Below, one piece after another: positions 1,162 through 61,436 of a DNA stretch of 64,000 nt (the stretch's first letter is position 1; each line of letters begins with the position of its first letter). Source of the stretch: Ignavibacteriota bacterium (GTDB lineage: Bacteria; Bacteroidota; Ignavibacteria; UBA10030); the NCBI GenBank assembly GCA_003170475.1, contig PMZI01000066.1:1-64000 (forward strand), read 5' to 3'. A model generated the notes under the pieces. The model was not told the origin of the DNA and did no database searches. It saw only the letters and a program-made list of their open reading frames with translations. Made by a program: the position numbers and the translations under genes.

Positions 1162-1458
1162 TTACCCTTTGACCAGTTTGCGGCCGCGTTCAAACAGATC
1201 GGCGGCGTCATCCACCAGTTGCTTGCCGCGCTCGAACATGTCGCGGCTGGCTTCCACGATGCCGCTGCTCGTATCGGCCACCGCATCTTTGCTCTGCTGC
1301 ACCTTGCCGGCGAGGTATTGCCGGGTTTCCTTGCCGCTCTTGGGCGCATACAAAACGGCGAAGGCCGCGCCGATACACGCCCCCGCCAGAAACCACGCGA
1401 CGTTGCCGGTGAAGTTCGATTGCGTATCTTCGGTCCGCTCTTCAATTTCGTGAGTCAT
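1162..1458 (-). CDS. YtxH-domain small membrane protein
   Basis: A 98-residue protein. The ATG at 1458 is preferred over an upstream frame extension because it is preceded by a GAGG ribosome site. Acidic residues are followed by one hydrophobic segment ('VAWFLAGACIGAAFAVLYAP'), then by 'KSGKETRQYL' and an amphipathic helical tail rich in K, D and A. This is the YtxH (Gsr-like) layout: a single membrane anchor with the signature '..G..AllfAPksGkE.R..' and a coiled tail. Such proteins are stress-associated in many bacteria, and a molecular role is not established. It is the first gene of a two-gene unit with the metallo-hydrolase and is divergent from the DUF2007 gene. Confidence 0.75.
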   Translation of the reverse strand: MTHEIEERTEDTQSNFTGNVAWFLAGACIGAAFAVLYAPKSGKETRQYLAGKVQQSKDAVADTSSGIVEASRDMFERGKQLVDDAADLFERGRKLVKG

Positions 1459-1500
1459 CGGAATGGGGCCTCTATGGATATTCTGCGATATCCTGGAGGC
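1459..1500. promoter_or_regulatory. Divergent upstream region between YtxH and DUF2007 genes
   Basis: Only about 40 bases separate the two divergent starts, so their promoters must overlap each other or the coding starts. The ribosome site GGAGG for the rightward gene lies at 1493-1497. No clear -10/-35 pair was identified. Confidence 0.35.
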
Positions 1501-1818
1501 ATGGCGCAAGATCCCAGGCACGACGAAGATTCCGCGGGCGACGATCAACTCAACCCTTCCCCCGATTTGGACATGGTCACGCTCTATGACGCACCCATCG
1601 TGGACGCTGAAATTGAGGCTGACATGATTCAAGGCGTTCTGGAGTCGAACGGCATCCCGTCCATCCTGGTGCGCAACTCGATCTTACCGTCATTGGGCTT
1701 CGAGGTGAAGGTGCCGCGGGCCAGGGTGGAAGAAGCCGAGCGTTTGATTGAGGAGGCGAAGGCCGCCGGTCCGGAAGCCGCCGCCGAGGCCGAAAGAGCC
1801 TCCGAAGAGCCGTCCTAG
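1501..1818 (+). CDS. DUF2007-family putative signal transducing protein
   Basis: A 105-residue protein. The ATG at 1501 is chosen because GGAGG stands 4 bases upstream; an earlier in-frame ATG at 1474 lacks a ribosome site. The core reads 'MVTLYDAPIVDAEIEADMIQGVLESNGIPSILVRN', then 'FEVKVPRARVEEAERLIEEAK'. This is the ferredoxin-like alpha/beta pattern of DUF2007, with the typical idea 'access two sites, choose shorter-lived copy, residue conversion to loop'. The C-terminus is an Ala/Glu-rich tail. The family is annotated as putative signal transduction, and no reaction is known. It stands alone, facing away from YtxH. Confidence 0.75.
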   Translation: MAQDPRHDEDSAGDDQLNPSPDLDMVTLYDAPIVDAEIEADMIQGVLESNGIPSILVRNSILPSLGFEVKVPRARVEEAERLIEEAKAAGPEAAAEAERASEEPS

Positions 1819-1865
1819 GTCTCTGACCGCCTGGTTTGGTGCCTTTTCGCGGTCGCCCATTCGCG

Positions 1866-2060
1866 CTGTTGGACCAGGCGTACTTCCAAAAGATGGAAGA
1901 CGTGCTGGCCGTTTACGAGAAGCCCTATAATCCCGTCCAACCCGTCCTTTGCCTGGATGAGAGACCTATCTCCCTGCACGCTGACGTGCGAGCGCCGATA
2001 CCGGCCAAACCGGGGAAACTGGCCAAGCAAGACAACGAGCATAATTGGAACGCCGACGCC
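1866..2060 (+). pseudogene. IS630-family transposase remnant
   Basis: A short open stretch encodes 'MEDVLAVYEKPYNP', 'PVLCLDERPISL' and 'PIPAKPGKLAKQD'. In intact IS630-type DDE transposases this is the start of the catalytic domain: 'MEDVL.VY.rPyDp..PvvClDE...QL...vr.PiPa.PGrp...DyEY', in which the Asp of 'C.DE' is the first catalytic residue. Here the reading continues into unrelated sequence after about 65 residues, and neither a helix-turn-helix N-terminus nor the last catalytic residues are present. No terminal inverted repeats were found. The remaining bases to 2196 hold nothing recognisable. Confidence 0.6.
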
Positions 2061-2196
2061 TCCGGGCGACTATCACCTCACCATTCAGGCTGAAACTGCC
2101 AGGCACCGGGTCATCTACAGCACAGCCCTGAGTCGGCCCTTCCAAGACGCAGCCCGTCATCCACGTCTGATACATTGTTGAGTTGAAGCGGCCACT

Positions 2197-2853
2197 ATGA
2201 AAGCCTTGATAGTAGGGGCCGGCGCGCAGGGCCGGGTAATCCTCGATATCCTGCGAGCCGAAGCCCGTCACGAAAGCGTCGCCTTCGTCGACGACAACTC
2301 CGCGATGCGCGGCCGCCTGGTGAATGGCGTCGCCATCGAGTGCGGCCTCGAGGAGGCTCTCGCCCGCTCCGACGGCATCGAGATGATCGTCGCACTCGGC
2401 GACCCGGACCGCCGCCTCGCCGTCGCCGCGCGCATCGCCGGCCGCGGCATCCCACTACTGAACGCTGTGCATCCCTCGGCTGTCGTTGTGTTCTCCGCCA
2501 CACTCGGCCGCGGCATCATGATCGGCGCCAATGCCGTCGTCAATTCCAATGCTCGAATCGGCGATAATGTCAATATCAACACCGCGGCGGTAGTCGAGCA
2601 TGATTGCGTTATCGCCGCAGGCGCAGCGGTTAGTCCCGGGGCGCGAATCGGAGGGCGTGTCACCATTGGCGAGTGCGCATTCATCGGCAGCGGCGCGATT
2701 CTACTCGCGCGCGTCGCCATCGGTGCGCGGACCGTGGTGGGCGCCGGTGCCGTCGTGACGAAAAGCCTGCCGGAACAGGTGCTGGCGCTGGGAGTGCCCG
2801 CCCGCATCACCAAACGGCTGGATGCGAACTTCGATTGGAGCCGGGTTTTATGA
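2197..2853 (+). CDS. NeuD/PglD-type sugar O- or N-acetyltransferase
   Basis: A 218-residue protein. The N-terminus 'MKALIVGAGAQGRVILDIL' is the Rossmann-like GxGxxG element that NeuD/PglD proteins use to bind the sugar nucleotide. It is followed by 'VAFVDDN'. From about residue 95 to 205 come hexapeptide repeats ('VVVFSATLGRGIMIGANAVV' and similar) that build a left-handed beta-helix for acetyl-CoA binding, ending in 'VVGAGAVVTKSLPEQVLALGVPAR'. Such enzymes acetylate an amino-sugar nucleotide or sialic-acid-type sugar. Its stop overlaps the start of the next aminotransferase gene (ATGA). An aminotransferase followed by a PglD-like acetyltransferase suggests an N-acetylated amino sugar (inference). 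It is the first gene of the cassette. Confidence 0.85.
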   Translation: MKALIVGAGAQGRVILDILRAEARHESVAFVDDNSAMRGRLVNGVAIECGLEEALARSDGIEMIVALGDPDRRLAVAARIAGRGIPLLNAVHPSAVVVFSATLGRGIMIGANAVVNSNARIGDNVNINTAAVVEHDCVIAAGAAVSPGARIGGRVTIGECAFIGSGAILLARVAIGARTVVGAGAVVTKSLPEQVLALGVPARITKRLDANFDWSRVL

Positions 2854-4007
2854 GTGCCACAGATCTGTTTCAAGACCAGATTCCCCTGCTGAAGCCGTGG
2901 ACCGGCGAAGAAGAAGTTCGCGCCGCCGCCGAAGTGATCCTCTCCGGCTGGGTGAGCCAGGGGCCCAAGGTCGCCGAGTTCGAAACCGCGGTCGCCGGCT
3001 ACGTCGGCGCGCGCTATGGCGTCGCCACCAACGCCTGCACCACCGCGCTTCACCTCACGCTGCACCTCAGCGGCGTCGGGCCCGGTGACGACGTGGTCAT
3101 GCCCTCCCACACCTGCATGGCTACCGCCAACGCCGTGCACCACGCCGGAGGCCAGCCGGTCTTCGCCGATATCGACCCGCGCACCTACAACCTCGATCCC
3201 CAGTCCGCCGCCGCCGCCATCACTCCGCGCACCAAGGCGATTCTCGTCGTCCACCAGATCGGTCTCGCCGCCGACATGCAGCCGTTCGTCGCGCTCGCAG
3301 CCAGGCACGGCCTGGCCCTCATCGAAGACGGCGCATGCTCGCTCGGCGCAACCTCGCGCGGCAAGCGCGTGGGCGGCATCGCGGCGCCCACCTGCTTCAG
3401 TTTTCACCCCCGCAAAATGATCACCACCGGCGAAGGCGGCATGATCACAACCAACGACGCCGCACTCGCCGATAAAGCCCGCATCCTCCGCGCCACCGGA
3501 GCTTCCATCTCCGACCTGGAGCGCCACAAGGCCAAGGGCCTGCTGGTGCAGAAGTACGGCGAAGTGGGCTACAACTACCGCCTCACCGATATCCAAGCAG
3601 CCATAGGCATCGTACAGATGAAGAAGCTGGACGCCATGGTCCAGCAGCGCACCGCGCAGGCCCGCCGCTACGACGCCGCTCTGGCCGGGATCGACGAAGT
3701 CGAGCCCCCCTACGTGCCGCCCTACGCTACCCACGCCTATTCGTCCTACCTGATCCGCCTGCGGCCTGGGGCGTGCATGGATCGCGACACCCTTCTGCGC
3801 CGCATGGCCGAACGCGGCATCTCCTGCCGCAGCGGAATTCAGCCGCTCCACCAGGAACCTTTCTACGAAGCGCGCTACGCCGGCGTGCATTTCCCCGCCA
3901 GCGAAGACGCGGCGCGCACTACTATGTTCCTGCCGATCTTCCCCGGCCTCACCGAAGAGCAACAGGATCGCGTCATCGCGGAGCTGAGAAGTGCCCTGGG
4001 GCGGTGA
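2850..4007 (+). CDS. DegT/DnrJ/EryC1/StrS aminotransferase (first copy)
   Basis: A 385-residue PLP-dependent sugar aminotransferase that converts a keto-sugar nucleotide to an amino sugar, usually with glutamate as donor. The start ATG overlaps the stop of the acetyltransferase gene. Typical motifs are 'GWVSQGPKVAEFE', 'ATNACTTALHL', 'PSHTCMATANAV' and 'LIEDGACSLGA'. The 'SFHPRKMITTGEGG' segment places the Schiff-base lysine at K189. 'GYNYRLTDIQAAIG' is the other family signature. Length is normal for the family. A second, related copy lies at 5689-6870 in the same cassette. Specific substrate is unknown. Confidence 0.9.
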   Translation: MSATDLFQDQIPLLKPWTGEEEVRAAAEVILSGWVSQGPKVAEFETAVAGYVGARYGVATNACTTALHLTLHLSGVGPGDDVVMPSHTCMATANAVHHAGGQPVFADIDPRTYNLDPQSAAAAITPRTKAILVVHQIGLAADMQPFVALAARHGLALIEDGACSLGATSRGKRVGGIAAPTCFSFHPRKMITTGEGGMITTNDAALADKARILRATGASISDLERHKAKGLLVQKYGEVGYNYRLTDIQAAIGIVQMKKLDAMVQQRTAQARRYDAALAGIDEVEPPYVPPYATHAYSSYLIRLRPGACMDRDTLLRRMAERGISCRSGIQPLHQEPFYEARYAGVHFPASEDAARTTMFLPIFPGLTEEQQDRVIAELRSALGR

Positions 4008-4725
4008 CGGCATCACGGTCGTCTTCGCGGCCTATAACGAAGAGAAAAACGTGGAAGCAGCCATGGCCCAGGCGCTGGACGCCCTCCGCGGTCAGTTCCA
4101 GCGCTTCGAGATCATCATCGTCGAGGATGCCAGCCGCGACGGCACCCCCGCCCTCTGCGATGCGCTCGCCGCGGTTCATCCCGAAATCCGCGTCCTCCAC
4201 AACGAAAAGAACCTGGGCCAGGGCGCCACTCTCGTGCGCGGTTTCCAGCAAGCCCGCTTCGACCTGGTCACCCACAACGCCATGGACTACCCGTTCGACC
4301 TCCGCGACCTCAAGCTCATGACCCCGCTCCTCGCCGAGGCCGATATCGTAGTGGCCGTGCGCCGCTCCCAGGCCGGCTACTCGCCCTACCGCGTCCTCAC
4401 CTCGGCCGTCCACCGCACGCTCCTCCATCTGCTCTTCCCCCTGCGCCTGCGCGATTACAACTTCGTGCAGCTCTACCCCCGCTCGGTGTGGGAAGCCGTG
4501 AAAGTGGAGGCGCGCAGCACCGCCTTCCTCACGCCCGAAGCGCTCATCCGCGCGTACGATATGGGCTACCGCGTTCGCGAAGTCGAAATCGAATACCATC
4601 CCCGCACCGCCGGAGTGGCCACGTCCGGAAAACCCAAAGTGATTCTGCATTCCCTCCGCGACATGTTTGCCTTCTGGTGGAAGCGGCTGCGGCGCCAGAC
4701 GCCACGCAGGAAGAAACTCATATGA
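3991..4725 (+). CDS. Family 2 glycosyltransferase (DPM/GtrB-like, no membrane tail)
   Basis: About 244 residues. A GTG start at 3991 overlaps the end of the aminotransferase gene by 17 bases, with GGAG upstream. The N-terminus 'GITVVFAAYNEEKNVEAAM' followed by 'FEIIIVEDASRDGT' is the GT-A nucleotide-sugar binding fold of family 2. The metal-binding acidic motif is less standard: 'VTHNAMDYPFDL' stands where DxD is expected. There are no transmembrane helices at the C-terminus, unlike GtrB; the tail is strongly basic ('RLRRQTPRRKK'), perhaps for membrane contact. Its place between amino-sugar genes suggests transfer of the cassette's sugar to a lipid carrier or glycan. Confidence 0.8.
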   Translation: MPWGGDGITVVFAAYNEEKNVEAAMAQALDALRGQFQRFEIIIVEDASRDGTPALCDALAAVHPEIRVLHNEKNLGQGATLVRGFQQARFDLVTHNAMDYPFDLRDLKLMTPLLAEADIVVAVRRSQAGYSPYRVLTSAVHRTLLHLLFPLRLRDYNFVQLYPRSVWEAVKVEARSTAFLTPEALIRAYDMGYRVREVEIEYHPRTAGVATSGKPKVILHSLRDMFAFWWKRLRRQTPRRKKLI

Positions 4726-5696
4726 AAGACAAACGCGTATTAATTACCGGTGGCGCCGGCCTGGTCGGCTCCCACATCGCCGACCTGCTGGTTGAGCGCT
4801 CGGCGAAAGAAATCGTCGTCCTCGATAACTTCGTCCGGGGCCGAAGAGAAAACATCGCTCGCGCCATTTCGAGCGGCCTCGTCGCCGTGGTCGAAGGCGA
4901 CATCCGCGACCGCAAGCTCCTCGCCGAAGTCATGCAGGGTATCGACATCGTCTTCCATCAGGCCGCCATCCGCATCACGCAGTGCGCCGAGGATCCGCGT
5001 CTGGCCCTCGAAGTCCTGGTCGATGGCACGTTCAACGTGGCAGAGCAGGCCGTGAAGGCCAAGGTCGCCAAGGTCGTGGCGGCTTCCTCGGCCTCGGTCT
5101 ACGGCATGGCCGACGGGTTCCCCACCACCGAGTGCCACCACCCCTACAACAACCGCACGTTCTACGGCGCGTCCAAGGTATTCAACGAAGGGCTGTTCCG
5201 CAGCTTTCACGAAATGTACGGCCTGCCCTACGTGATGCTACGCTACTTCAACGTGTACGGCCCCCGCATGGATATCTTCGGCGTCTACACGGAAGTGCTG
5301 ATCCGCTGGATGGAGCGCATCGTCGCCGGCAAGGGCCCGCTCATCTTCGGCGACGGCAAGCAGACCATGGACTTCATCTTCTCCGAGGACATCGCCCGCG
5401 CCAACATCGCCGCCGCCGCCGCCCCCGTGGTGGACGAGGTCTTCAACGTCGCCAGCGGCGTCGAAACCAGCCTCAACGACCTGGCCGCCGCCCTGCTACG
5501 CGTCATGGGCTCCAGCGCGCCCCTCGAATACGGCCCCGAGCGGAAGGTGAATCCCGTAGCCCGGCGCATCGCCGACACGTCCAAGGCCAAACGCCTGCTC
5601 GGTTTCGAAGCCTCCGTCTCGCTCGATGAAGGCCTGCGCAAGCTGGTAAAGTGGTGGCGGAGCGAGCAGCAAGCCAAAGAGGCCGTGCATGTCTGA
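4722..5696 (+). CDS. NAD-dependent sugar-nucleotide epimerase/dehydratase
   Basis: A 324-residue short-chain dehydrogenase of the extended SDR type. 'VLITGGAGLVGSHI' is the NAD-binding GxxGxxG loop. 'ASSASVYG' supplies the catalytic serine region, and Y148-x-x-x-K152 ('YGASK') is the catalytic pair. 'RYFNVYGPRMD' and 'FIFSEDIARAN' are typical of UDP-glucose 4-epimerase and UDP-GlcNAc epimerase relatives. The start ATG overlaps the previous stop (ATGA), and the end overlaps the next gene by 8 bases, so translation is coupled. Its likely role is to make the sugar-nucleotide precursor for the cassette; exact chemistry cannot be fixed. Confidence 0.88.
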   Translation: MKDKRVLITGGAGLVGSHIADLLVERSAKEIVVLDNFVRGRRENIARAISSGLVAVVEGDIRDRKLLAEVMQGIDIVFHQAAIRITQCAEDPRLALEVLVDGTFNVAEQAVKAKVAKVVAASSASVYGMADGFPTTECHHPYNNRTFYGASKVFNEGLFRSFHEMYGLPYVMLRYFNVYGPRMDIFGVYTEVLIRWMERIVAGKGPLIFGDGKQTMDFIFSEDIARANIAAAAAPVVDEVFNVASGVETSLNDLAAALLRVMGSSAPLEYGPERKVNPVARRIADTSKAKRLLGFEASVSLDEGLRKLVKWWRSEQQAKEAVHV

Positions 5697-51373: not shown

Positions 51374-54121
51374 ATGAAGAAACTCTTCGTGTTAATTGTT
51401 CTCGCAACCATATTTCTTGTCGTGATGGGAAATATGTTGCAGGCTCAGACAGCCGTTACTCAATGGGGTTCGACGCCTCGCGGTACCTCTGATTGGACTG
51501 TTCTTAATACAGCATCAACACCAGCTGGTAATGCCTCTATGGGTGGTACTGCAGCTCCAACAGCATGGATGTCGATCAAAGGTGGTTTTGCTCCCATGAC
51601 ACCAACCACCTCCCAGGCCTTTGTCATCACCGGTACTTTTGAGTTTGTTGGGGGTGGCAACGGTGCTGCTTATACGTGGCTTCGTTTTGCTTTATTTAAT
51701 GAAGCCGGAACGCTGACCGGACAGAATACACCTACCGCTGCCTGGAGCGAGGATGCCAACGCTTATGGATACGAGTTTGATCCAAGATCAGGCGCAGGTA
51801 CCATAGCAAATGGCAGTGGTGGTGGTGTTGGTGAACAGGGTACTGAGTGGTATATCAATAACTCAAAATCCTGGACCAGTACCAACAGCAATGGCGGCAG
51901 AGCTATTTCGACTGTACTGCAAGCCCCGTACAATCAAGTAGCAACGGCGGGTGTTTATGATTGGGCGATATCCGTTCAACCGCTCGCGACTGGTGGAAGC
52001 CAAGTAAATTGGTATTTTATACAACAGCATGCAGCAAGTTCAACGAACTACTATTGGTGGGGCGGCTCGTTCGTTGATCCTACACCGGTAACAACTTCGT
52101 TCAACAGCATCGGTTTTGGTGTTAACGGTTCTGGTGTAGACGCTACAATGAAGCAGGTTAATTTAACGAATGTCAAAGTGTCGCTTGGTTCACCGATCAC
52201 AGTGCCGACAGCCCCATTTCAGTCATTTTACGTTGACGCTTGGGGTGGCACACCCCGTGGTACCCAGGATTGGACTATACTCAATGACTCAACGTATCTG
52301 ATTGGTGATGCCAGTATGGGTGGTACTGCTGCTCCAAGTAATTGGATGACGATTAAAGGTGGTTTTAGAGAAAAGGATTCAACTCTAAAAACTGTTAAAC
52401 CAACCGTTGACAAAGCCCTCGTCATCACCGGCACTTTTGAGTTTGTTGGGGGTGGCAACGGTTCTGCTTACACGTGGCTTCGTTATGCCTTATTCAATGA
52501 AAGAGGTACGCTGACTGGTAGGAATACACCTGCTGCTGCATGGAGCGAGGATACCGTCGCCTGGGGATACGAGTTTGATCCAAGATCAGGCGCAGGCACC
52601 ATAGCAAATGGCAGTGGTGGCGGTGTTGGCGAACAGGGGACTGAGTGGTATGTTGTTAACTCAAAATCCTGGACGAGCACCAATAGCAATGGCGGCAGAG
52701 CTATTTCGACTGTACTGCAAGCCCCTTCCAATCAAGTAGCCTCCGCGGGCGTCTATGATTGGGCGATATCCGTTCAACCGCTCGCTACTGGTGGAAGCGA
52801 AGTGCGGTGGTATTTCATACAACAGCACACAGCAGGTACAAGCAATTACTATTGGTGGGGCGGCTCCTTCATTGATCCGACGCCTGTAGCAACTGGGTTT
52901 AACAGCATTGGTTTTGGCGTCAATGGTTCTGGTGTAGACGCCACAATGAAGCGGGTTAACATCAGGAACGTCAAAGTCGACTTAACTACGCCGATAACAG
53001 TTCCCACTGCTCCATGGCAAGCTTACTATGTTAAGGACTGGGGTTTCATCGGCGGCAGGATGTACGGATGGACCTTTACGCAGGGCGATGTCGTCGGTAA
53101 TGCAACCATTTCGGGAACGAAGGCGAATGACAAGTGGGCTGCAATCCGTGGCGGTTTCGAGGCCCTTGCACCCACGGCGGCAAAGGCTATGGTGTTGACA
53201 GGATCAGTGGAATTTGTCGGCGGTGGGCTCTTTAACCCCGGCACATTCCGCTTTGGTACTTTCTATAGCGATCAGGCAGGAAAGGTCATCCTGGACACTG
53301 CGAAAGCCACACTTCCAGACTCCACACGCTGGGATGGAACCGAATTCAATACCAATGGATATTTGTTCGTCCCACCAATCAGTACAACAGGGCTCTTCAA
53401 CTGGGCGGGAGTCAATCAGGGTGCAAGCTCCGGCGGTGTCATCAACGGAGCGTGGCTGCATACCGACTATCCGGCAACAGGATGGACGACCAACTACACG
53501 CTGGGCACCGATGTTCAAACACCGGCGAACTCACCATTCCCGGCGGGTGTTTACGACTTCACAATTACAGCATATGCGAAGTCTACGACATCGAATGATG
53601 TCCGGTGGAAGCTGGCGAAACAGGGGGGTGGCTATTCGATCACAGGAAAACTCACCGACTCCCATATGCCGCTGGCAGCCACGAAATTCAACAGCATCAA
53701 CTTCGCGATCTCCGGGGATTCTCCCGTAACCGGACTGAAACTGACGAACGTGAAAGTTGACTATGTCGATGTCGCGTCTGTGCCCATCGCCTCGATTGTC
53801 GGTGTGACGAGCGTTGAAGGAGCTAGCTCCACGGCGCCAACGACATTCGCGATGGAACAGAACTATCCCAATCCGTTCAATCCTTCGACAACGATCCGCT
53901 ACGACGTTGCGAAGCCCGCGTATGTGACAATCCGTGTGTACGATGTGCTGGGCCGGATGGTCTCGCAGCTCGTCGATGGAGTACATGCGGCGAGCAGCTA
54001 CGTGGTTCGCTGGAACCCGTCCGGACTGAGCAGCGGTACGTATCTCTACCGGATCGATGCCCGAAACGTGGATGGTTCGGGATCGTTCAGTTCTGTGAAG
54101 AAGCTGATTCTGATGAAGTAG
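51374..54121 (+). CDS. Secreted three-repeat protein of unknown fold with T9SS sorting domain
   Basis: A 915-residue protein with signal peptide ('LFVLIVLATIFLVVMGNMLQAQ'). Three copies of a roughly 265-residue unit lie at about 31-290, 297-556 and 560-815. Each has 'DWT.L', 'W..I.GGF', 'TG..EFVGGG', then 'GVYDW.IS..' or 'GVYDFTITA' and 'FNSI.F...G'. Copies 1 and 2 are almost identical at DNA level with a 798-base offset; copy 3 is diverged and GC-richer. The alternating strand pattern suggests beta-sandwich domains. The sorting domain starts at Q829. It may bind polysaccharide beside the receptor, but I recognise no known family. Confidence 0.75.
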   Translation: MKKLFVLIVLATIFLVVMGNMLQAQTAVTQWGSTPRGTSDWTVLNTASTPAGNASMGGTAAPTAWMSIKGGFAPMTPTTSQAFVITGTFEFVGGGNGAAYTWLRFALFNEAGTLTGQNTPTAAWSEDANAYGYEFDPRSGAGTIANGSGGGVGEQGTEWYINNSKSWTSTNSNGGRAISTVLQAPYNQVATAGVYDWAISVQPLATGGSQVNWYFIQQHAASSTNYYWWGGSFVDPTPVTTSFNSIGFGVNGSGVDATMKQVNLTNVKVSLGSPITVPTAPFQSFYVDAWGGTPRGTQDWTILNDSTYLIGDASMGGTAAPSNWMTIKGGFREKDSTLKTVKPTVDKALVITGTFEFVGGGNGSAYTWLRYALFNERGTLTGRNTPAAAWSEDTVAWGYEFDPRSGAGTIANGSGGGVGEQGTEWYVVNSKSWTSTNSNGGRAISTVLQAPSNQVASAGVYDWAISVQPLATGGSEVRWYFIQQHTAGTSNYYWWGGSFIDPTPVATGFNSIGFGVNGSGVDATMKRVNIRNVKVDLTTPITVPTAPWQAYYVKDWGFIGGRMYGWTFTQGDVVGNATISGTKANDKWAAIRGGFEALAPTAAKAMVLTGSVEFVGGGLFNPGTFRFGTFYSDQAGKVILDTAKATLPDSTRWDGTEFNTNGYLFVPPISTTGLFNWAGVNQGASSGGVINGAWLHTDYPATGWTTNYTLGTDVQTPANSPFPAGVYDFTITAYAKSTTSNDVRWKLAKQGGGYSITGKLTDSHMPLAATKFNSINFAISGDSPVTGLKLTNVKVDYVDVASVPIASIVGVTSVEGASSTAPTTFAMEQNYPNPFNPSTTIRYDVAKPAYVTIRVYDVLGRMVSQLVDGVHAASSYVVRWNPSGLSSGTYLYRIDARNVDGSGSFSSVKKLILMK
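51460..53010 (+). repeat. Near-identical intragenic duplication, offset 798 bp
   Basis: For example, GGATACGAGTTTGATCC occurs at 51767 and again at 52565, with long matching stretches on both sides. The offset is 266 codons. A third related unit (about 53030-53820) matches only at protein level. Confidence 0.85.
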
Positions 54122-54235: not shown

Positions 54236-55888
54236 ATGCTTTCCTTGCTCAGAATTTCGTGCGTCAACCCCTCGGAAATTCGGGACGATTATTTTCAACC
54301 ACCTATTGTACCAACGCGAACTTGGTCGCACTATGGACGGCGGTTGACAACGATCGTTTTGATATTTCTCACGGCGTTCACGCTGTTATCTGAACGGGCT
54401 TCATCACAACCCCTGTCCAGCAACAAGGAGAAGTTTCTCGGAGCAGGCACGAGCTCTCCCCCTGAGAGAAACATGTATCAATATTGGAATCAGGTGACGC
54501 CGGGGAACGATGGCAAATGGGGTTCCGTCTCCTTCGCACGGGGACAATATAACTGGTCAAACCTGGACGCGATCTACAACTATGCGAAGAACCTCGGCCT
54601 CCTCTACAAACATCACACGCTGGTGTGGGGTAGTCAACAGCCTGCATGGGTGAGCGCCCTTTATCCCGATACAGCTGCCGTGAGAGCAGCGGTCGAGGAT
54701 TGGATCAGTCGTGTCGGGCAACAGTATCCGAAGATGAATTTCGTCGACGTTGTAAACGAGCCTATTCACGCTCCTCCGTCCTATCTTGCAGCGCTTGGGG
54801 GGAACGGATCAACCGGATGGGACTGGGTCATTACCGCATTTCAACTTGCGCGGAAGTACTGCCCCAACGCCAAGCTCCTCGTGAACGAATACAATATCCT
54901 CGGCAGCACACCAACAGCAAACACCTATCTGACGATCATCAACCTCCTAAAAGACCGCGGCCTGATCGACGGCATCGGTGTACAGGGACATTATTTCGAG
55001 TTCAGGAGCCATATCGGCACCACAGGTTACAACTACAGTCTAACCGACATCAAAACCAATCTCAACAGACTTACGGCGACCGGGCTTCCCGTTTACATTA
55101 CCGAGTTTGATATTGATGAACCGATTGATTCCAACCAGGTGTCACAGTACAAGATTTATTTCCCCATTCTCTGGAGCAATCCCGGGGTCAAAGGCATTAC
55201 GTTCTGGGGATATATCCAAAACGATGTTTGGAGTTCGTATCCCAACACCTATCTACTGTACTCCGATGGACGAGAACGCCCCGCGATGCAATGGCTGCGG
55301 ACATACGTCTCGAGTCCCCAACCTCCATCTCTGATTTCACCCATCAATCAAATAGGGATTGTGCGCAATCCGCTTTTAGTTTGGCAATCTTCTGCCACTG
55401 CAACATCTTATCACGTTCAGGTTTCCGACAACAGTGTGTTCGTAGGCATGGTTGTCGACACAATGGTTGCCGATACAACGCTTCGGCTTAGTGCCCGGGC
55501 GGCAAATTCGACATACTATTGGCGCGTAAGCGGCGTGAATCAATATGGAGCAAGCGACTATTCGGCCTCCGGATTTGTTACAGGAGATCTGATCTCAACT
55601 GTCGAAACGAATAATGATGTCCCGAAGGATTTCAGTCTGTCGCAAAATTACCCAAATCCGTTTAATCCAAGCACAAATTTTGAGTTGCGAGTTGCGAGTT
55701 CCGAGTTTGTTTCGGTGAAGGTGCTTGATGTGCTGGGAAGAGAAGTTGCGACACTCGTAAACGAACAGCGACAACCGGGAACATATTCGGTTCGATGGAG
55801 CGCCTCGGGGCTGCCCAGTGGCGTGTACTTTTATCGCCTCCGTGCTGGCGAATTCGTGGAAACAAAGAAGATGATTCTCGCGAAATAA
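54236..55888 (+). CDS. Secreted GH10 endo-1,4-beta-xylanase with Fn3-like and T9SS domains
   Basis: A 550-residue enzyme. The N-terminus has a long leader before the hydrophobic signal ('TIVLIFLTAFTLLSERASS'), so the true start could be a later codon; the ATG at 54236 has AGGATAGAGGA upstream. The GH10 barrel shows 'HHTLVWGSQQPAWV', acid/base E175 in 'DVVNEPIH', 'LLVNEYNI', 'GVQGHYFE' and nucleophile E290 in 'YITEFDID'. The conserved Trp pair appears in 'ITFWGY'. An Fn3-like domain (about 375-455) precedes the sorting domain from Q470. It cuts xylan backbones outside the cell. Confidence 0.92.
   Translation: MLSLLRISCVNPSEIRDDYFQPPIVPTRTWSHYGRRLTTIVLIFLTAFTLLSERASSQPLSSNKEKFLGAGTSSPPERNMYQYWNQVTPGNDGKWGSVSFARGQYNWSNLDAIYNYAKNLGLLYKHHTLVWGSQQPAWVSALYPDTAAVRAAVEDWISRVGQQYPKMNFVDVVNEPIHAPPSYLAALGGNGSTGWDWVITAFQLARKYCPNAKLLVNEYNILGSTPTANTYLTIINLLKDRGLIDGIGVQGHYFEFRSHIGTTGYNYSLTDIKTNLNRLTATGLPVYITEFDIDEPIDSNQVSQYKIYFPILWSNPGVKGITFWGYIQNDVWSSYPNTYLLYSDGRERPAMQWLRTYVSSPQPPSLISPINQIGIVRNPLLVWQSSATATSYHVQVSDNSVFVGMVVDTMVADTTLRLSARAANSTYYWRVSGVNQYGASDYSASGFVTGDLISTVETNNDVPKDFSLSQNYPNPFNPSTNFELRVASSEFVSVKVLDVLGREVATLVNEQRQPGTYSVRWSASGLPSGVYFYRLRAGEFVETKKMILAK
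55682..55709 (+). repeat. Four 7-base tandem units inside a T9SS sorting domain
   Basis: GAGTTGC, GAGTTGC, GAGTTCC, GAGTTTG lie in frame-shifting heptamers that encode 'ELRVASSEF' between 'NPSTNF' and the 'VLGREVATLV' strand. The second GH10 gene has a similar heptamer run at the same place. Confidence 0.7.
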
Positions 55889-55924: not shown

Positions 55925-55975
55925 CTTTATGAATCCCGCCTGTGAGCGGAATCCTGAGAGGCGGGACTTCAGTTC
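55925..55975. repeat. Inverted repeat related to the one at 62749-62790
   Basis: TCCCGCC and GGCGGGA arms flank CGGAATCC. The words CCCGCCTG, GGAATCC or GGGATCC, AGAG and GCGGGACTT occur in the same order near 62755-62792, suggesting a shared dispersed element. Confidence 0.5.
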
Positions 55976-56042
55976 GGGGTCTCAAGACAAGGTCCTGACC
56001 AGAACCATGTCAGGACGACATTTCGATGTGAAAGGAGATTGT

Positions 56043-57671
56043 ATGTCGAGAACAGGAACGTGCCTTCTTGTGCTCGTGCTCATCGGGTTTTCTCTGAAGG
56101 CCCAGACGAACAAACCTGCAACTATTCCCCATCTGGAAAAACATGGCACTGCCACTCAGCTCATCGTTGACGGCAAGCCGATGCTGATGCTCGCCGGTGA
56201 GACGGGAAATTCCAGCGCGTCCGACCTGAAGTATCTGGATGAGATCTGGCCCAAGATCGAGAAGATGAACCTCAATAGCTTGCTCGTGCCGGTGTACTGG
56301 GAATTGATCGAACCGGGCGAAGGGAAATTTGATTTCACACTTGTGGACGGTGCAATCAACGGTGCGAGGAAGCATAACATCAAACTGGTATTCCTCTGGT
56401 TCGGGACATGGAAAAACAGTATGTCCTGCTACGCTCCGTTTTGGGTCAAAATAAATCAAGAGAAATTTCCGCGCGCCCGGGATGCACAGGGTCGGGCTCA
56501 GGAAATCCTGACGCCGTTCAACAACGAGAATCTGAACGCTGACAAGAAGGTTTTTTCCGAGCTCATGAAGCACATCCGCATGGTCGATGCAGACTATCAT
56601 ACCGTCGTCATGGTACAGGTGGAAAATGAGATCGGCATGATCCCGGATTCCCGGGATCATAGCAAGGAAGCAGATCGAGCCTTCAACGCGAATGTTTCGG
56701 CCGAATTGCTTCAGTACCTCGAGAAGAACAAGGAGTCACTGACCCCCGAACTTCGAAAGGCCTGGGGCGACCGGGGTTTCAAGACTTCGGGAACGTGGGA
56801 AGAGATATTTGACAAGGGGCCACTGACGGATGAGTTGTTCATGGCCTGGTATTTCGCAAAATACACAAATGCAGTTGCCGAGGCCGGCAAGAAAGAGTAT
56901 ACGCTCCCTATGTACGTCAACGCAGCTCTGATACGGCCCGGCTACAAACCCGGGCAATATCCGAGCGCCGGACCACTCCCCCACCTATTCGATGTCTGGA
57001 AAGCGGCAGCTCCTGCGATAGATTTTCTCTCCCCTGATCTCTATTTCAAAAATTTTGCCGAGTGGGTCACCAAGTACGACCGCCCGGGGAATCCGCTCTT
57101 CGTCCCGGAGGCGAGCAACGCTCAGAGCATGGCCAATGCGTTCTACGCGATCGGCCCGTTGAACGCTATGGGCTACAGCCCGTTTTCGATAGAATCATTG
57201 GAGCATCCGGAGAACAACCAGGTCACAAAAGCGTATGACGTTCTGAAGCAGCTCACCCCTCTGATCCTCGCCAATCAGGGAAAGGGAACGATGACCGGAG
57301 CGCTGCTCGACAGCGCAAACCAGAAAGCTGAACTGAAACTCGGCGACTACGTATTCACTGTCAGCCATGAGTACAGCTGGCCTTATGCCACGCGGGCCGA
57401 CGGAGAAACACCGCGATTCGGTTGCATGATCATCATGGTTTCTCCGAATGAGTACTACATCGCCGGCCGCGGCGTGATCGTGACATTTCAAACCGTTGCT
57501 GGTGACGGCTCCATCGCAGGTATCGGCACTATGGATGAAGGGCGCTTCGTTGACGGGAAGTGGGCGCCCGGCCTCCGTATGAACGGAGACCAAAGTCATC
57601 AGGGGAGGCACTTGAATCTCAACGGGAACACATTCAGCATTCAGAAAGTGCAACTCTACAGGTACAAATGA
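56043..57671 (+). CDS. Secreted GH35 beta-galactosidase-type enzyme (DUF5597 C-terminus)
   Basis: A 542-residue protein. The ATG at 56043 has AAAGGAGA upstream and begins a signal peptide ('TGTCLLVLVLIGFSLKAQ'). The GH35 barrel includes 'DGKPMLMLAGETGNSSA', 'LNSLLVPVYWELIEPGEGKFDF', acid/base E196 in 'VQVENEIG' and the probable nucleophile E356 in 'LFVPEASNA'. The remaining part matches the DUF5597 type of C-terminal beta domain found in polysaccharide-utilisation loci. No sorting domain is present, so it is probably periplasmic. It may remove galactose from xylan or xyloglucan side chains. Its stop overlaps the GH30 start. Confidence 0.88.
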   Translation: MSRTGTCLLVLVLIGFSLKAQTNKPATIPHLEKHGTATQLIVDGKPMLMLAGETGNSSASDLKYLDEIWPKIEKMNLNSLLVPVYWELIEPGEGKFDFTLVDGAINGARKHNIKLVFLWFGTWKNSMSCYAPFWVKINQEKFPRARDAQGRAQEILTPFNNENLNADKKVFSELMKHIRMVDADYHTVVMVQVENEIGMIPDSRDHSKEADRAFNANVSAELLQYLEKNKESLTPELRKAWGDRGFKTSGTWEEIFDKGPLTDELFMAWYFAKYTNAVAEAGKKEYTLPMYVNAALIRPGYKPGQYPSAGPLPHLFDVWKAAAPAIDFLSPDLYFKNFAEWVTKYDRPGNPLFVPEASNAQSMANAFYAIGPLNAMGYSPFSIESLEHPENNQVTKAYDVLKQLTPLILANQGKGTMTGALLDSANQKAELKLGDYVFTVSHEYSWPYATRADGETPRFGCMIIMVSPNEYYIAGRGVIVTFQTVAGDGSIAGIGTMDEGRFVDGKWAPGLRMNGDQSHQGRHLNLNGNTFSIQKVQLYRYK

Positions 57672-59605
57672 ACACTGACCACAAAGACCTCACCGTTCGC
57701 GTTGTTTCTGCGGTCGTTGCTCTTTTGACGCTTTCGACGCTGGTTTCCTTGACTGCATCTGCTCAGACGCTTGTCGTCAGAGGTGCCGTGACTACACCTT
57801 CGGGCGCCGCTCGGTTTGCTTCCGTGACGTTTGTCGACAAAGGGGATACGACGAAGAAGACCTCTGTCCTAACAGATACTGCCGGGAGATATTCCATCAA
57901 TCTCGTCACGTTTGTGAGCCAAGTCGCTGCCCCGCCTTCGGAATTCAGGCTGGAACAAAACTATCCGAACCCGTTCTCTTCTTCAACGGCGATATCCTAT
58001 CAACTCGACAAGCCGGCCGATGTAACCGTCACGGTCTACGATATTCTTGGAAGAGAAATAAGGAAATTCGCAGTAGGAGATCAGGCGGTCGGAACACACG
58101 GGATGTTGTGGGATGGGAAGAACAATGCCGGGGCTGTCGTCTCGAGGGGGATATATTTCTATCAGTTGCGCGCCCAGAACGAAACGCGGGTGAAAAAGAT
58201 GTTGTATGGCTTCGGCGGAAACGAAATGACGGTTTCGTCCGCTGGATTTCTCGTTCCACAGATTGCTGAGTCGAGAAGAGGAACGAACGCGGATCTCCTC
58301 GGGGGCAGTTATTCCGTACGAATAGCGAACACAGACAGCACGTTTCCTCCCGTCATCGCGCAGCAATTCGATAATATAACCGTTCAGAGCAGTTCGACGC
58401 AGGATTTCGGGGTTAGCGCCAATGGCACATACCCCGATCCTACGGCAGCGACGATTTATGCTGACAATCCGCAGCAGTTGATCAGGGGTTTTGGGGCGGC
58501 AAATATTCTGCCATGGCGACCCGATATGACGTCTGACCAGGTACAAAAAGCATTTGGGAGCGGGCCGGGTCAATTGGGGTTCTCCATCCTTCGCCTTCGC
58601 GTTCCTTACAAAGATACAACATCGGACCCGTTTAGGAATCAAATTCCCACTGCCAAACTCGCTCAGTCGCTTGGGGCAATCGTCTTTGCAACTCCCTGGA
58701 CTCCACCACCTGCGATGAAAAGCAACAACAATATTGTCGGCGGTACTCTCAATGCAAGCTCATATGCAGATTACGCCGCCTATTTGAAAAGCTTTGCCGA
58801 CTATATGTCCGCGAACGGCGCGCCCCTCTATGCAATCTCGCTTCAAAATGAGCCGGACGCCACTGTTACGTACGAGTCGTGCAGCTGGAACGGCACACAG
58901 TTTCTCAATTTCACGAAGAATAACGCAGGTTCCATCGGAACGAGAGTCATGATGCCTGAATCGCAGAACTTCGTCCATGCGTTATCGGATCCGACGCTCA
59001 ACGATTCTCTCGCTGCATCAAACACCGCAATTATCGCCGGCCATCTTTATGGAGGCGGGCTTACATCCTACCCTCTGGCTACCACCAAGGGGAAGGAATT
59101 GTGGATGACGGAGTACCTCGATCTTGATACAACATGGCTCGGGGCGACCAGCACGCCGCCAGCTGGCGTGCTCAACACTGGAAAACAGATCAGCGATTGT
59201 ATGAAAGCTGGCATGAATGCGTACGTCTGGTGGTATATTGTGAGATATTATGGACCTATTGACGAGTCCGGAGTGGTGACCAAGCGCGGCTATGTCATGT
59301 CACAGTTTGCCCGTTTTGTCCGCCCCGGTTCTTATAGATTGTTTTCAACAGACAACAGTTTCCGATCGCAGGTTGACGTTACGGCGTATCGGAACGGTTC
59401 AAAGATCGTTCTCGTTGCCGTGAACAGGAAATCATCGACAGCTGCACAACTGTTTACTTTGTGGAATGGAACCGTTGGAACGTTCACACCCTACGTTACA
59501 TCCAGCAGCAAGAATTGCGAACAACAGAGCGGCGTTTCCTTTAAGAACGGCACCTTCAGCTATACACTGGAACCTCTCAGTGTCACCACGTTCGTGCTGA
59601 ATTGA
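57668..59605 (+). CDS. Secreted GH30 (glucurono)xylanase with an internal sorting-like domain
   Basis: A 645-residue protein whose ATG overlaps the GH35 stop. A signal peptide (about 1-33) is followed by a short carboxypeptidase-regulatory-like piece and, unusually, by a FlgD/T9SS-type domain at about 97-180 ('QNYPNPFSSSTAISY', 'DILGREIRKF', 'GIYFYQLRA', 'VKKMLYG'). The catalytic domain begins about residue 270 ('QLIRGFGAANILPW'), with 'VFATPWTPPPAMK', acid/base E395 in 'SLQNEPD', nucleophile E482 in 'LWMTEYLD', and 'YVWWYIVRYYGP'. The last element resembles the GH30 subfamily that recognises glucuronate side chains. The C-terminus lacks the usual sorting domain. Confidence 0.88.
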   Translation: MNTDHKDLTVRVVSAVVALLTLSTLVSLTASAQTLVVRGAVTTPSGAARFASVTFVDKGDTTKKTSVLTDTAGRYSINLVTFVSQVAAPPSEFRLEQNYPNPFSSSTAISYQLDKPADVTVTVYDILGREIRKFAVGDQAVGTHGMLWDGKNNAGAVVSRGIYFYQLRAQNETRVKKMLYGFGGNEMTVSSAGFLVPQIAESRRGTNADLLGGSYSVRIANTDSTFPPVIAQQFDNITVQSSSTQDFGVSANGTYPDPTAATIYADNPQQLIRGFGAANILPWRPDMTSDQVQKAFGSGPGQLGFSILRLRVPYKDTTSDPFRNQIPTAKLAQSLGAIVFATPWTPPPAMKSNNNIVGGTLNASSYADYAAYLKSFADYMSANGAPLYAISLQNEPDATVTYESCSWNGTQFLNFTKNNAGSIGTRVMMPESQNFVHALSDPTLNDSLAASNTAIIAGHLYGGGLTSYPLATTKGKELWMTEYLDLDTTWLGATSTPPAGVLNTGKQISDCMKAGMNAYVWWYIVRYYGPIDESGVVTKRGYVMSQFARFVRPGSYRLFSTDNSFRSQVDVTAYRNGSKIVLVAVNRKSSTAAQLFTLWNGTVGTFTPYVTSSSKNCEQQSGVSFKNGTFSYTLEPLSVTTFVLN

Positions 59606-59640
59606 GAAGAACGTGCAGGGGACAAGAATAGTTCTTTGAA

Positions 59641-59685
59641 GAAGTCCGACTTCTTCATGAAGTATCGGGGTGGAAGTCGGACTTC
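59641..59685. repeat. Perfect 13-bp inverted repeat before the second GH10 gene
   Basis: GAAGTCCGACTTC (59641-59653) and GAAGTCGGACTTC (59673-59685) flank a 19-base loop. It looks like a dispersed REP-type hairpin and may end the GH35-GH30 transcript or stabilise its 3' end. Confidence 0.7.
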
Positions 59686-59723
59686 TACCGCAGCAAGAAA
59701 CTATTCACAAGGGAGTACATGCA

Positions 59724-61436
59724 ATGCGCAGCGCACTGTGTTCTAAAAAATGGCAGGTTGTTCTTCTCCTCAGTCTGGGGTTCAGCGTAGAAGCCTCAGC
59801 TCAAATCCAAACCAACGTTCCGGCATTGAAAGATGTTTTCGCGAAAGACTTCTATATCGGATGCCTCCTTTCGTATACTCACGTCGGGTTCGCCACGGAC
59901 ACTGTGGTACTGGGGCAATCGAACGTCGTGGATGTCAATGGCGGCCCCCTGATCAAGTACCACATGAACTCGATGTCGCCCGGCAATAACATGAAACCGA
60001 TCTACACAGTCGACTTGGCCGGCAGCGCCGCGGCGTATGCTGCCGCCGCCACACAGGCACAGAAGGACTCAATTGATGTCAGACCGATCATCACCTTCAA
60101 TGCAAACATTATTGCCCAACTTAATTGGGCTCGGCGGCAGGGCTTCACGTTTCGCGGCCATACGCTCGTATGGCACAGTCAGACCCCTGGTACCGGGTTC
60201 TTTTGCACGGGCTACAGTGCGACCGGCAATCGGCTGACGAAGGCAAAGATGACGGACAGGCTGGAGAACTACATCAAGGAGATGATCCGCACCATACATG
60301 AAGGCTGGCCGGGATTGCTGTCGGCCTACGATGTCGTGAATGAGGCGATGAACGACAATGGCACTGACCGGACGGACAGCGATTGGTATGTCACCTTCGG
60401 CGACAATTCCTATATTGCGAAAGCGTTTGAATTTGCCCGCAAATACACCCAGTTCTACAACGAAAAGCAGATCAAGCTCTACTACAATGACTATAATACC
60501 TATGTGGCCTCGAAAGCCGATGCGATCGTACGCGTCGTCGGGCCAATTTTCCGGGCCGGCAATCTCGACGGCCTCGGCATGCAGGAGCATGACGCTTTTT
60601 CGTATCCCACCGCTAATCAATGGATCGCTACCTACAATAAATATGACACGGTTTGCACTGAGATGGCCGTCACCGAACTGGACATCAACACCAACAGCGG
60701 GACAAATACACCATCGGCATCCATCCTGGCACAGCAGGCGAATCAGTATGGGCAGTTGTTCAAGTGTTTCGTGGAACGAAGCTACAAATCAGGACGCGGT
60801 AAGATCATCAATGTTTCCAAGGATGGCTTGAACGATCAGTACACGTTCGTTACTAACAACGCCACCTCTCTGTGGGACACGAAGGACCAATGCAAGCCGG
60901 CGTTCTACGCCGTCGTGGACGTAGGAAGAAACTATAACGCGCTTGATTCGCTGATCAAATACTCCATAACACTTCAGCAGAACAAGTTTACGGCCAGTTC
61001 ATGGACAACGCTCGCGGGGGCCTTGTCTGCAGCGCAAACAGCGAAAGTCCAAAATTATTCAGTATCGGTTTCGGCGGCGACCGCGTTGAGCGCAGCAAAG
61101 GACAGCCTGAATAATGCACTGAACGGTCTTGTGAAAACCGTTAGCGGCGTGACGTCCACCGGAAGTTTGCCCGGCACATTCGCCCTCAGCCAAAACTATC
61201 CAAATCCGTTCAATCCAAGCACGAATTTCGAATATCGAATTGTCAATTCCGAATTGGTACGCCTGACCGTGATCGATATGCTCGGCAGAACCGTTGCTAC
61301 GCTTGTCAATGAAGCTCGTCAGCCCGGCATATACACCGCACGATGGGACGCCTCCGCGTTCCCAAGCGGTGTCTATTACTATCGACTTCAAGCCGGAACA
61401 TTTGTCGATACAAAAAAGATGGTACTGATGAAGTAG
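59724..61436 (+). CDS. Secreted GH10 endo-1,4-beta-xylanase (second) with T9SS domain
   Basis: A 570-residue enzyme; GGGAG precedes the ATG at 59724, and the signal peptide is 'WQVVLLLSLGFSVEASAQ'. The barrel has 'FRGHTLVWHSQTPG', acid/base E207 in 'DVVNEAMN', 'KLYYNDYNTY', 'GLGMQEHDAF' and nucleophile E318 in 'AVTELDIN'. It differs from the first GH10 in its loop lengths and in having a helical linker ('WTTLAGALSAAQTAKV') instead of Fn3 before the sorting domain, which starts at Q490. The two GH10 enzymes probably act on different regions of xylan. purU follows after 34 bases. Confidence 0.92.
   Translation: MRSALCSKKWQVVLLLSLGFSVEASAQIQTNVPALKDVFAKDFYIGCLLSYTHVGFATDTVVLGQSNVVDVNGGPLIKYHMNSMSPGNNMKPIYTVDLAGSAAAYAAAATQAQKDSIDVRPIITFNANIIAQLNWARRQGFTFRGHTLVWHSQTPGTGFFCTGYSATGNRLTKAKMTDRLENYIKEMIRTIHEGWPGLLSAYDVVNEAMNDNGTDRTDSDWYVTFGDNSYIAKAFEFARKYTQFYNEKQIKLYYNDYNTYVASKADAIVRVVGPIFRAGNLDGLGMQEHDAFSYPTANQWIATYNKYDTVCTEMAVTELDINTNSGTNTPSASILAQQANQYGQLFKCFVERSYKSGRGKIINVSKDGLNDQYTFVTNNATSLWDTKDQCKPAFYAVVDVGRNYNALDSLIKYSITLQQNKFTASSWTTLAGALSAAQTAKVQNYSVSVSAATALSAAKDSLNNALNGLVKTVSGVTSTGSLPGTFALSQNYPNPFNPSTNFEYRIVNSELVRLTVIDMLGRTVATLVNEARQPGIYTARWDASAFPSGVYYYRLQAGTFVDTKKMVLMK
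61223..61257 (+). repeat. Five 7-base quasi-tandem units inside a T9SS sorting domain
   Basis: GAATTTC, GAATATC, GAATTGT, CAATTCC, GAATTGG encode 'EFEYRIVNSELV'-like residues just after 'NPSTN', at the same place as the heptamers of the first GH10 gene. Confidence 0.65.

Follow-up and report, generated by a model that had tools for sequence, protein, structure and literature searches.

The type IX secretion system (T9SS) recognizes its cargo by a sorting domain, and the closest described examples are the type A C-terminal domains (CTDs) of RgpB, PorU and PorZ. The consulted part of PMC10994853 describes a translocon-bound CTD that is gripped over a large surface by loops of SprA and PorV and would leave CTD-first. 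The consulted part of PMC11285876 reports mutants showing that the lysine of strand β7 and the β3-β4 loop both matter to the T9SS, and that the C-terminus tolerates extension by histidines. According to the same part, PorU removes the CTD and can join the new C-terminus to anionic lipopolysaccharide (A-LPS), and the CTDs of PorU and PorZ stay uncleaved and carry an extra β-ribbon. Here, we analysed a stretch of 64,000 nucleotides (the window) from an Ignavibacteriota bacterium, contig PMZI01000066.1, in which a gene for a glycoside hydrolase family 30 (GH30) enzyme of the GH30_8 type encodes a sorting-type domain ahead of the catalytic domain. We show that this T9SS type-A-like domain and its linker form the middle of a conserved three-part module that lies behind a signal peptide and before the GH30_8-type domain, and that this module is also found ahead of further enzymes within the class. 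The balance of evidence tilts towards a role in delivery: the module was never seen with a C-terminal sorting domain, the T9SS motifs are kept, and the CTD region of PorU is among the best structural matches of the inserted domain.

A sorting-type domain precedes an intact GH30 domain

A preliminary description of this locus placed the open reading frame at 57668-59605 and a sorting-type domain at about residues 97-180, ahead of the catalytic domain and without a C-terminal copy. The reading frame, Pfam and TIGR04183 confirm these positions. Three profiles match the domain, namely FlgD_ig (PF13860; residues 106-171, 49.7 bits against a cut-off of 27), Por_Secre_tail (PF18962; residues 99-178, 28.6 bits against 27) and the NCBIfam model TIGR04183, 'T9SS type A sorting domain' (residues 99-178, 40.2 bits against 23). 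The domain occupies residues 81-180 of 645 and is thus not at the C-terminal position of a T9SS type A CTD. No terminal copy was found in the window protein or its orthologues, and no sorting domain is encoded downstream of the GH30 stop in any frame from 59603 to 60000.

The catalytic part resembles GH30_8 glucuronoxylanases throughout. Pfam GH30 matches lie between residues 321 and 642, and the XynC profile NF052681 matches residues 260-645 at 358.6 bits, under its cut-off of 650. This part aligns to residues 6-383 of the 385 of 1nof (E 4.8e-94) and, when aligned with GH30_8 glucuronoxylanases, retains the NEPD, MTE and WWYI.R.YG motifs. E395, E482 and R526 are invariant across nine aligned sequences and are also aligned with 1nof; we take E395 and E482 to be the two catalytic glutamates and R526 to be the glucuronate-binding arginine.

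The end of the protein is a native GH30 end, as 12 GH30 orthologues terminate at this 'TTFVSN'-like position and the alignment to 1nof reaches it. The preliminary description had allowed for an artefact, either a frameshift near 59605 that hides a C-terminal sorting domain or a misassembled fusion. The probability of such an artefact, in which a terminal-CTD gene would have been joined to a GH30 gene, is negligible, and independent assemblies have already refuted it: the same layout and C-terminus occur in the 12 aligned orthologues, 34 GH30 genes (the window gene counted in) have the domain on the N-terminal side, and no downstream frame encodes a CTD. An oddity confined to the window was likewise rejected on the basis of independent genomes with the same layout.

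The sorting-type domain appears to be nested in a split outer domain

The CarboxypepD_reg profile (PF13620) matches residues 37-80 only, over profile positions 2-45 of 82 and at 17.9 bits against a cut-off of 32.3. The sorting-type domain is followed by a linker of 30 residues that varies and then, at residues 212-250, by a second block that is conserved in the alignment. The AlphaFold model of the whole protein is weak (mean predicted local distance difference test score (pLDDT) 62, predicted template modelling score (pTM) 0.46, pLDDT below 50 at residues 181-211), and the nesting rests instead on a model of the module only, made with nine sequences (pLDDT 74, pTM 0.44). In the latter, pLDDT is about 75-95 in the flanking blocks (about 75-95 in the first half and 85-95 in the second) and about 80 in the inserted domain, and the linkers, including module residues 150-177, are largely below 50.

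As modelled, the inserted domain has the seven-strand immunoglobulin-like (Ig-like) fold of solved CTDs. It matches PorU (6za2) over the range 947-1158, with the CTD at its end (Z 10.1, 92 residues, 2.4 Å), and FlgD (3osv; Z 9.5); the top match is the Vpr peptidase (Z 11.5). Many further Ig-like domains match as well, and scores of this height are also reached outside the CTDs. The RgpB CTD and PorZ are also among the Foldseek matches, with weaker scores.

Four structural matches reach over both halves of the putative outer domain: they begin at module residue 1 or 5 and end at 218-219, with only 83-86 residues aligned at 2.2-2.6 Å. They are TIE (6fwv, Z 8.9), BcpA (3rkp, 8.8), a chain of the BOS complex that is presumably NOMO (9c7u, 8.4) and the SdrD B region (8.3); the ranges give the first and last residue of each match, and a Z near 8 can reflect a common arrangement. 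On the simplest reading, the spanning matches draw on the two blocks and pass over the insert. This moderate evidence suggests that residues 34-80 and 212-250 form a single prealbumin-like sandwich split by the whole CTD cassette. The preliminary description, which lacked this apparent nesting, had offered a domain rearrangement as one of two options. That idea holds insofar as the sorting cassette sits inside what appears to be another domain; the arrangement is not a one-off but a conserved module, found also before other enzymes.

The layout is conserved among GH30 genes of the class

The same layout was seen in 12 GH30 orthologues in a first comparison. A search of the class sample, limited to four scored candidates per genome, gave 49 rows of GH30 homologues in 36 of 391 genomes. 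This and the other prevalence figures are lower bounds, because few candidates were scored per genome (7, 4, 12 and 9 by search) and a later search for M19 dipeptidases showed more. Exclusion of eight rows as fragments left 41 classifiable genes: 30 have a nested domain on the N-terminal side, four have a C-terminal CTD without the module, and seven of the same clade (L169, L173, L175, L177, L192, L195 and L202) have neither and look like lipoproteins, with a lipobox usually followed by lysines. No combination of two of nested domain, CTD and lipobox was seen among the 41; both ends are visible in 39, the lipoprotein-like L195 being 3'-truncated and the nested L191 5'-truncated. Named records add four nested, three C-terminally tagged and one lipoprotein-like gene, and four more such records are the same genes as in the sampled genomes.

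Lipoproteins were called with a regular expression and reading by eye. The lipobox pattern also matched Ruminococcus heads and L044, which were judged false, and it finds possible lipoboxes in five of 56 nested heads and in two of 28 M19 rows; these were judged more likely to be signal peptidase I sites.

By the models used, neither module nor CTD was found in Bacteroidales and other distant GH30 homologues, some of which end in an unclassified stretch of about 86 residues. On the GH30 tree, the four labels (nested, CTD, lipoprotein-like and outgroup) need 11 changes, and the supported branches alone force five changes for nested, four for lipoprotein and three for CTD. One of the 34 GH30 genes with an N-side domain, L174 (genome G419; 1457-3478, minus strand), has a terminal-CTD-type insert inside a different first half, which may represent a domain replacement or a separate nesting. 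A nested GH30 is also present in genome G188 at 2448.7-2450.6 kb, and locus L142 holds two in tandem (847-2802 and 2820-4775, minus strand). In Melioribacter roseus, the consulted part of PMC3534657 describes a glucuronoarabinoxylan xylanase, Mros2090, clustered with the GH10 enzyme Mros2091.

The module precedes other enzymes in the class

With seven candidates scored per genome, a profile of the module found full-length matches scoring 145 bits or more 48 times, in 40 of the 391 genomes; the profile was partly built from searched genomes, which match by construction. Of the matches listed beneath these, G419:C142 (157 bits) is a half-module and the rest are mostly terminal CTDs followed by a stop. 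Partners other than GH30 include PD40/WD40-like, PQQ-like and BNR/YCF48 propellers, a right-handed β-helix, a GHL15 enzyme and M19 dipeptidases, and in five carriers (L106, L140, L144, L146 and L156) the family of the partner is not clear. The genome of the window has an M19 carrier of its own, a membrane-dipeptidase gene on contig 14 (L105:1678-3486).

A directed M19 search gave matches in 113 of 245 genomes. The best 30 loci comprise 25 with the module, four bare and one truncated, and L159 from the earlier search brings the nested ones to at least 26 in the class; the second half of the module was judged by eye in several loci, and the remaining M19 rows are mostly shorter frames. Among 56 nested-type proteins, of which L141 and L149 are cut before the end and L122 has a broken frame, no terminal CTD was found. 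Phylum-wide samples yielded no full-length nested module outside the class of the window.

Three small frames of 165-227 amino acids, L197:2132-2764, L235:946-1626 (minus strand) and L236:1189-1683, encode a signal peptide, the first outer half and a terminal CTD with a stop. By their sequences, they could represent a step on the way to nesting, the remains of decayed modules or half-domains that complement something else.

Nested domains keep the motifs of terminal CTDs

A careful CTD tree (97 columns, 145 rows, bootstrap not settled) contains a branch with 99/99 support that separates 50 main nested domains and three terminal CTDs of other phyla (L103, L104) from all others, which are 86 terminal CTDs, four M19 copies, L156 and L174. 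The M19 clade has support of 100/99. From these sequences we claim two nested groups, main and M19, that appear distinct. In a smaller quick tree, neither the grouping of main with M19 (approximately unbiased test, p 0.97) nor that of all nested domains (0.91) was rejected; this tree search was poor, because both constrained trees scored better than the free one. Many independent nestings were also considered and are not established, as a single origin survives the quick test.

The β7 lysine is kept in 98% of the 50 main nested domains, 100% of the 26 M19 domains and 77% of the 86 terminal CTDs, and the glycine of the β3-β4 loop in 98%, 100% and 100%, respectively, where the matching of alignment columns to the motifs of PMC11285876 is our own reading. 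The nested copies also retain the leading T.V..P..F.L.QNYPNPF linker and the lysine-containing β7 end. Additionally, the main nested form has extra residues past strand 5 (columns about 110-119), a place where 23% of terminal CTDs also have letters. In our reading, these residues may correspond to the extra β-ribbon of PorU and PorZ.

These features bear on whether the nested domain is cut. PorU might cleave at its usual place before the CTD, leaving the two halves clasped noncovalently. The first half would then be anchored through a sugar at its new C-terminus and would hold the enzyme at the surface. The cassette does include the leading linker typical before terminal CTDs, the outer halves may form one sandwich, PorU is encoded in the genome, and its attachment of new C-termini to A-LPS (PMC11285876, consulted part) would supply the anchor. 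We nevertheless consider cleavage very unlikely, because the extra residues past strand 5 resemble, by our reading, the β-ribbon of the uncleaved PorU and PorZ, even with similar letters in some terminal CTDs.

Genomic context

The genome of the window encodes PorU (974.9 bits) and SprA (1102.8 bits). Across 61 carrier genomes, PorU is above the cut-off in 58, partial in G374 and G356, and missing in G389.

The GH30 gene is part of a cluster with two GH10 xylanase genes (Table 1). Its start overlaps the stop of the DUF5597 gene as ATGA, and the two are therefore probably translationally coupled. An inverted repeat of the type GAAGTCCGACTTC ... GGAAGTCGGACTTC was seen by eye between the GH30 and GH10 genes, at about 59638-59690 of the window, and is a possible processing or attenuation site. 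Further upstream, 51374-54121 encodes a protein of 915 amino acids with a C-terminal sorting domain, otherwise without a Pfam match above the cut-off, in which three similar repeats are apparent by eye. In the GH30 protein, cleavage of the signal peptide is probable between the motif ASA and Q33.

Table 1. Coordinates in the window of the GH30 gene, the parts of its product and the neighbouring genes.
Feature	Coordinates	Strand	Basis or remarks
GH30_8-type glucuronoxylanase gene with N-terminal nested module	57668..59605	+	645 amino acids plus stop, ATG to TGA
Predicted signal peptide I, residues 1-32	57668..57763	+	sequence reading; AlphaFold helix 3-26
Putative outer prealbumin/CarboxypepD_reg-like domain, first half, residues 34-80	57767..57907	+	sub-cut-off CarboxypepD_reg match at 37-80; four strands in module model
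Inserted T9SS type-A CTD-like/FlgD_ig-like cassette, residues 81-180	57908..58207	+	leading linker and QNYPNPF ... VKKM included
Variable, low-confidence linker, residues 181-211	58208..58300	+	pLDDT below 50; alignment variability
Putative outer domain, second half, residues 212-250	58301..58417	+	module-model pLDDT; structural matches across both halves
GH30 catalytic triose-phosphate isomerase (TIM) barrel and β-sandwich, residues 260-645	58445..59602	+	profile matches; alignment to 1nof
DUF5597 protein gene, GH42/GH35-like, upstream neighbour	55929..57671	+	
GH10 xylanase gene with normal C-terminal T9SS sorting domain, same cluster	54236..55888	+	Pfam
GH10 xylanase gene with normal C-terminal T9SS sorting domain, same cluster	59670..61436	+	Pfam

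Discussion

We demonstrated that a sorting-type domain stands ahead of GH30_8-type xylanases and other enzymes in one bacterial class. We infer from the sequences that it acts as an internal, probably uncleaved T9SS delivery signal, the likelier of the readings though at no better than about even odds. Besides the points given at the outset, the probable coupling of the gene to a cluster with two CTD-tagged GH10 enzymes counts for delivery. A mechanism can be envisaged as follows. Sec would export the protein to the periplasm, where it would fold; the outer domain would close and present the CTD-like domain on two flexible linkers, of 15-25 residues before and about 30 after. The T9SS would then recognize the CTD-like domain as a sorting signal despite its internal position, probably without cleavage, as in PorU and PorZ, and the xylanase would arrive at the surface of the cell alongside the GH10 partners that carry C-terminal tags. 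The full proposal, in which the T9SS reads a CTD inside a split N-terminal sandwich and the whole serves as a portable, uncleaved export and surface module that alternates with C-terminal CTDs and lipid anchors, is tentative and somewhat short of an even prospect.

Alternatively, the insert may descend from a T9SS CTD but now serve as a rigid spacer or docking domain of Ig-like fold that the T9SS does not see; a FlgD-like structural role had also been suggested in the preliminary description. The enzyme would then remain periplasmic, or lie on the inner side of the outer membrane, and would act on imported glucuronoxylan oligosaccharides. Several observations favour this explanation and weigh against delivery. 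In the window protein, and likewise in 15 of 20 further carriers, FlgD_ig has a higher score than Por_Secre_tail; the nested domains group apart from the terminal CTDs of the class, as a repurposed domain would; and the M19 clade mostly has Arg or Lys in place of a leucine that 97% of terminal CTDs possess. The carriers include M19 dipeptidases and β-propellers, which could act in the periplasm, and the four bare M19 homologues apparently have N-terminal membrane segments, as judged by eye. Moreover, of the seven genomes that encode a lipoprotein-like GH30, five also encode a nested copy, as does one of the four in which a GH30 bears a C-terminal tag; the nested enzymes may therefore be bound for a different destination instead of standing in for those signals. 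However, a plain spacer has no obvious need for the conserved β7 lysine end and QNYPNPF linker, and the same GH30 otherwise bears a C-terminal CTD or a lipobox, neither of which was seen with the module. GH30_8 endo-xylanases, in addition, act on polymeric xylan. We regard a repurposed spacer as the main rival, less likely than delivery but not far behind it.

Further points count against an internal delivery signal. The T9SS CTD signals described in the consulted parts of one review and two structural papers are all C-terminal, and the tolerated extensions in the consulted part of PMC11285876 are histidine tags, compared with about 465 residues here. PorU is present in eight of eight genomes without a module match, and its presence is thus uninformative on T9SS dependence. 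The DUF5597 protein encoded next to the GH30 gene has an apparent plain signal peptide and lacks a sorting domain; therefore, not all enzymes in the cluster need one. In the literature, searched through titles and abstract openings with thin coverage of subscription journals, we found no internal or N-terminal T9SS CTD, which is weak evidence of absence.

If the nested copy works as a signal, models of T9SS substrate recognition must make room for an internal one, a class of cargo is overlooked by secretome surveys in which a C-terminal CTD is required, and the module is a ready-made N-terminal device for export and display. If it does not, an export signal has been turned into a structural domain. 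Either way, a match to TIGR04183 alone cannot tell an export signal from a structural domain.

Compared with the GH30_8 glucuronoxylanases 1nof and 3gtn (XynC), the window protein is alignable over the entire catalytic part but adds the N-terminal module, and GH30 relatives in the PDB align to the catalytic part only. The outer domain shares its strand pattern with CarboxypepD_reg and prealbumin-like domains (PF13620; TIE, BcpA, SdrD B and the BOS complex), whereas here this pattern appears to be broken by an entire CTD and the profile match is below the cut-off. The Ig-like domain of the hook-cap protein FlgD has the same fold and profile match, but carriers of the window type are enzymes with signal peptides rather than hook proteins and retain the T9SS-type KKM end; in the scan of the window protein, whose remainder is the GH30 enzyme, no other flagellar Pfam family was found, the genome itself not having been searched for flagellar genes. 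With the type A CTDs of RgpB, PorU and PorZ, the inserted domain has in common the Ig-like fold, the QNYPNPF start, the DxLG loop, the GVYFY strand and the lysine of the last strand. It differs from them in being internal and N-terminal to an enzyme, so that about 465 residues follow where these CTDs have a stop.

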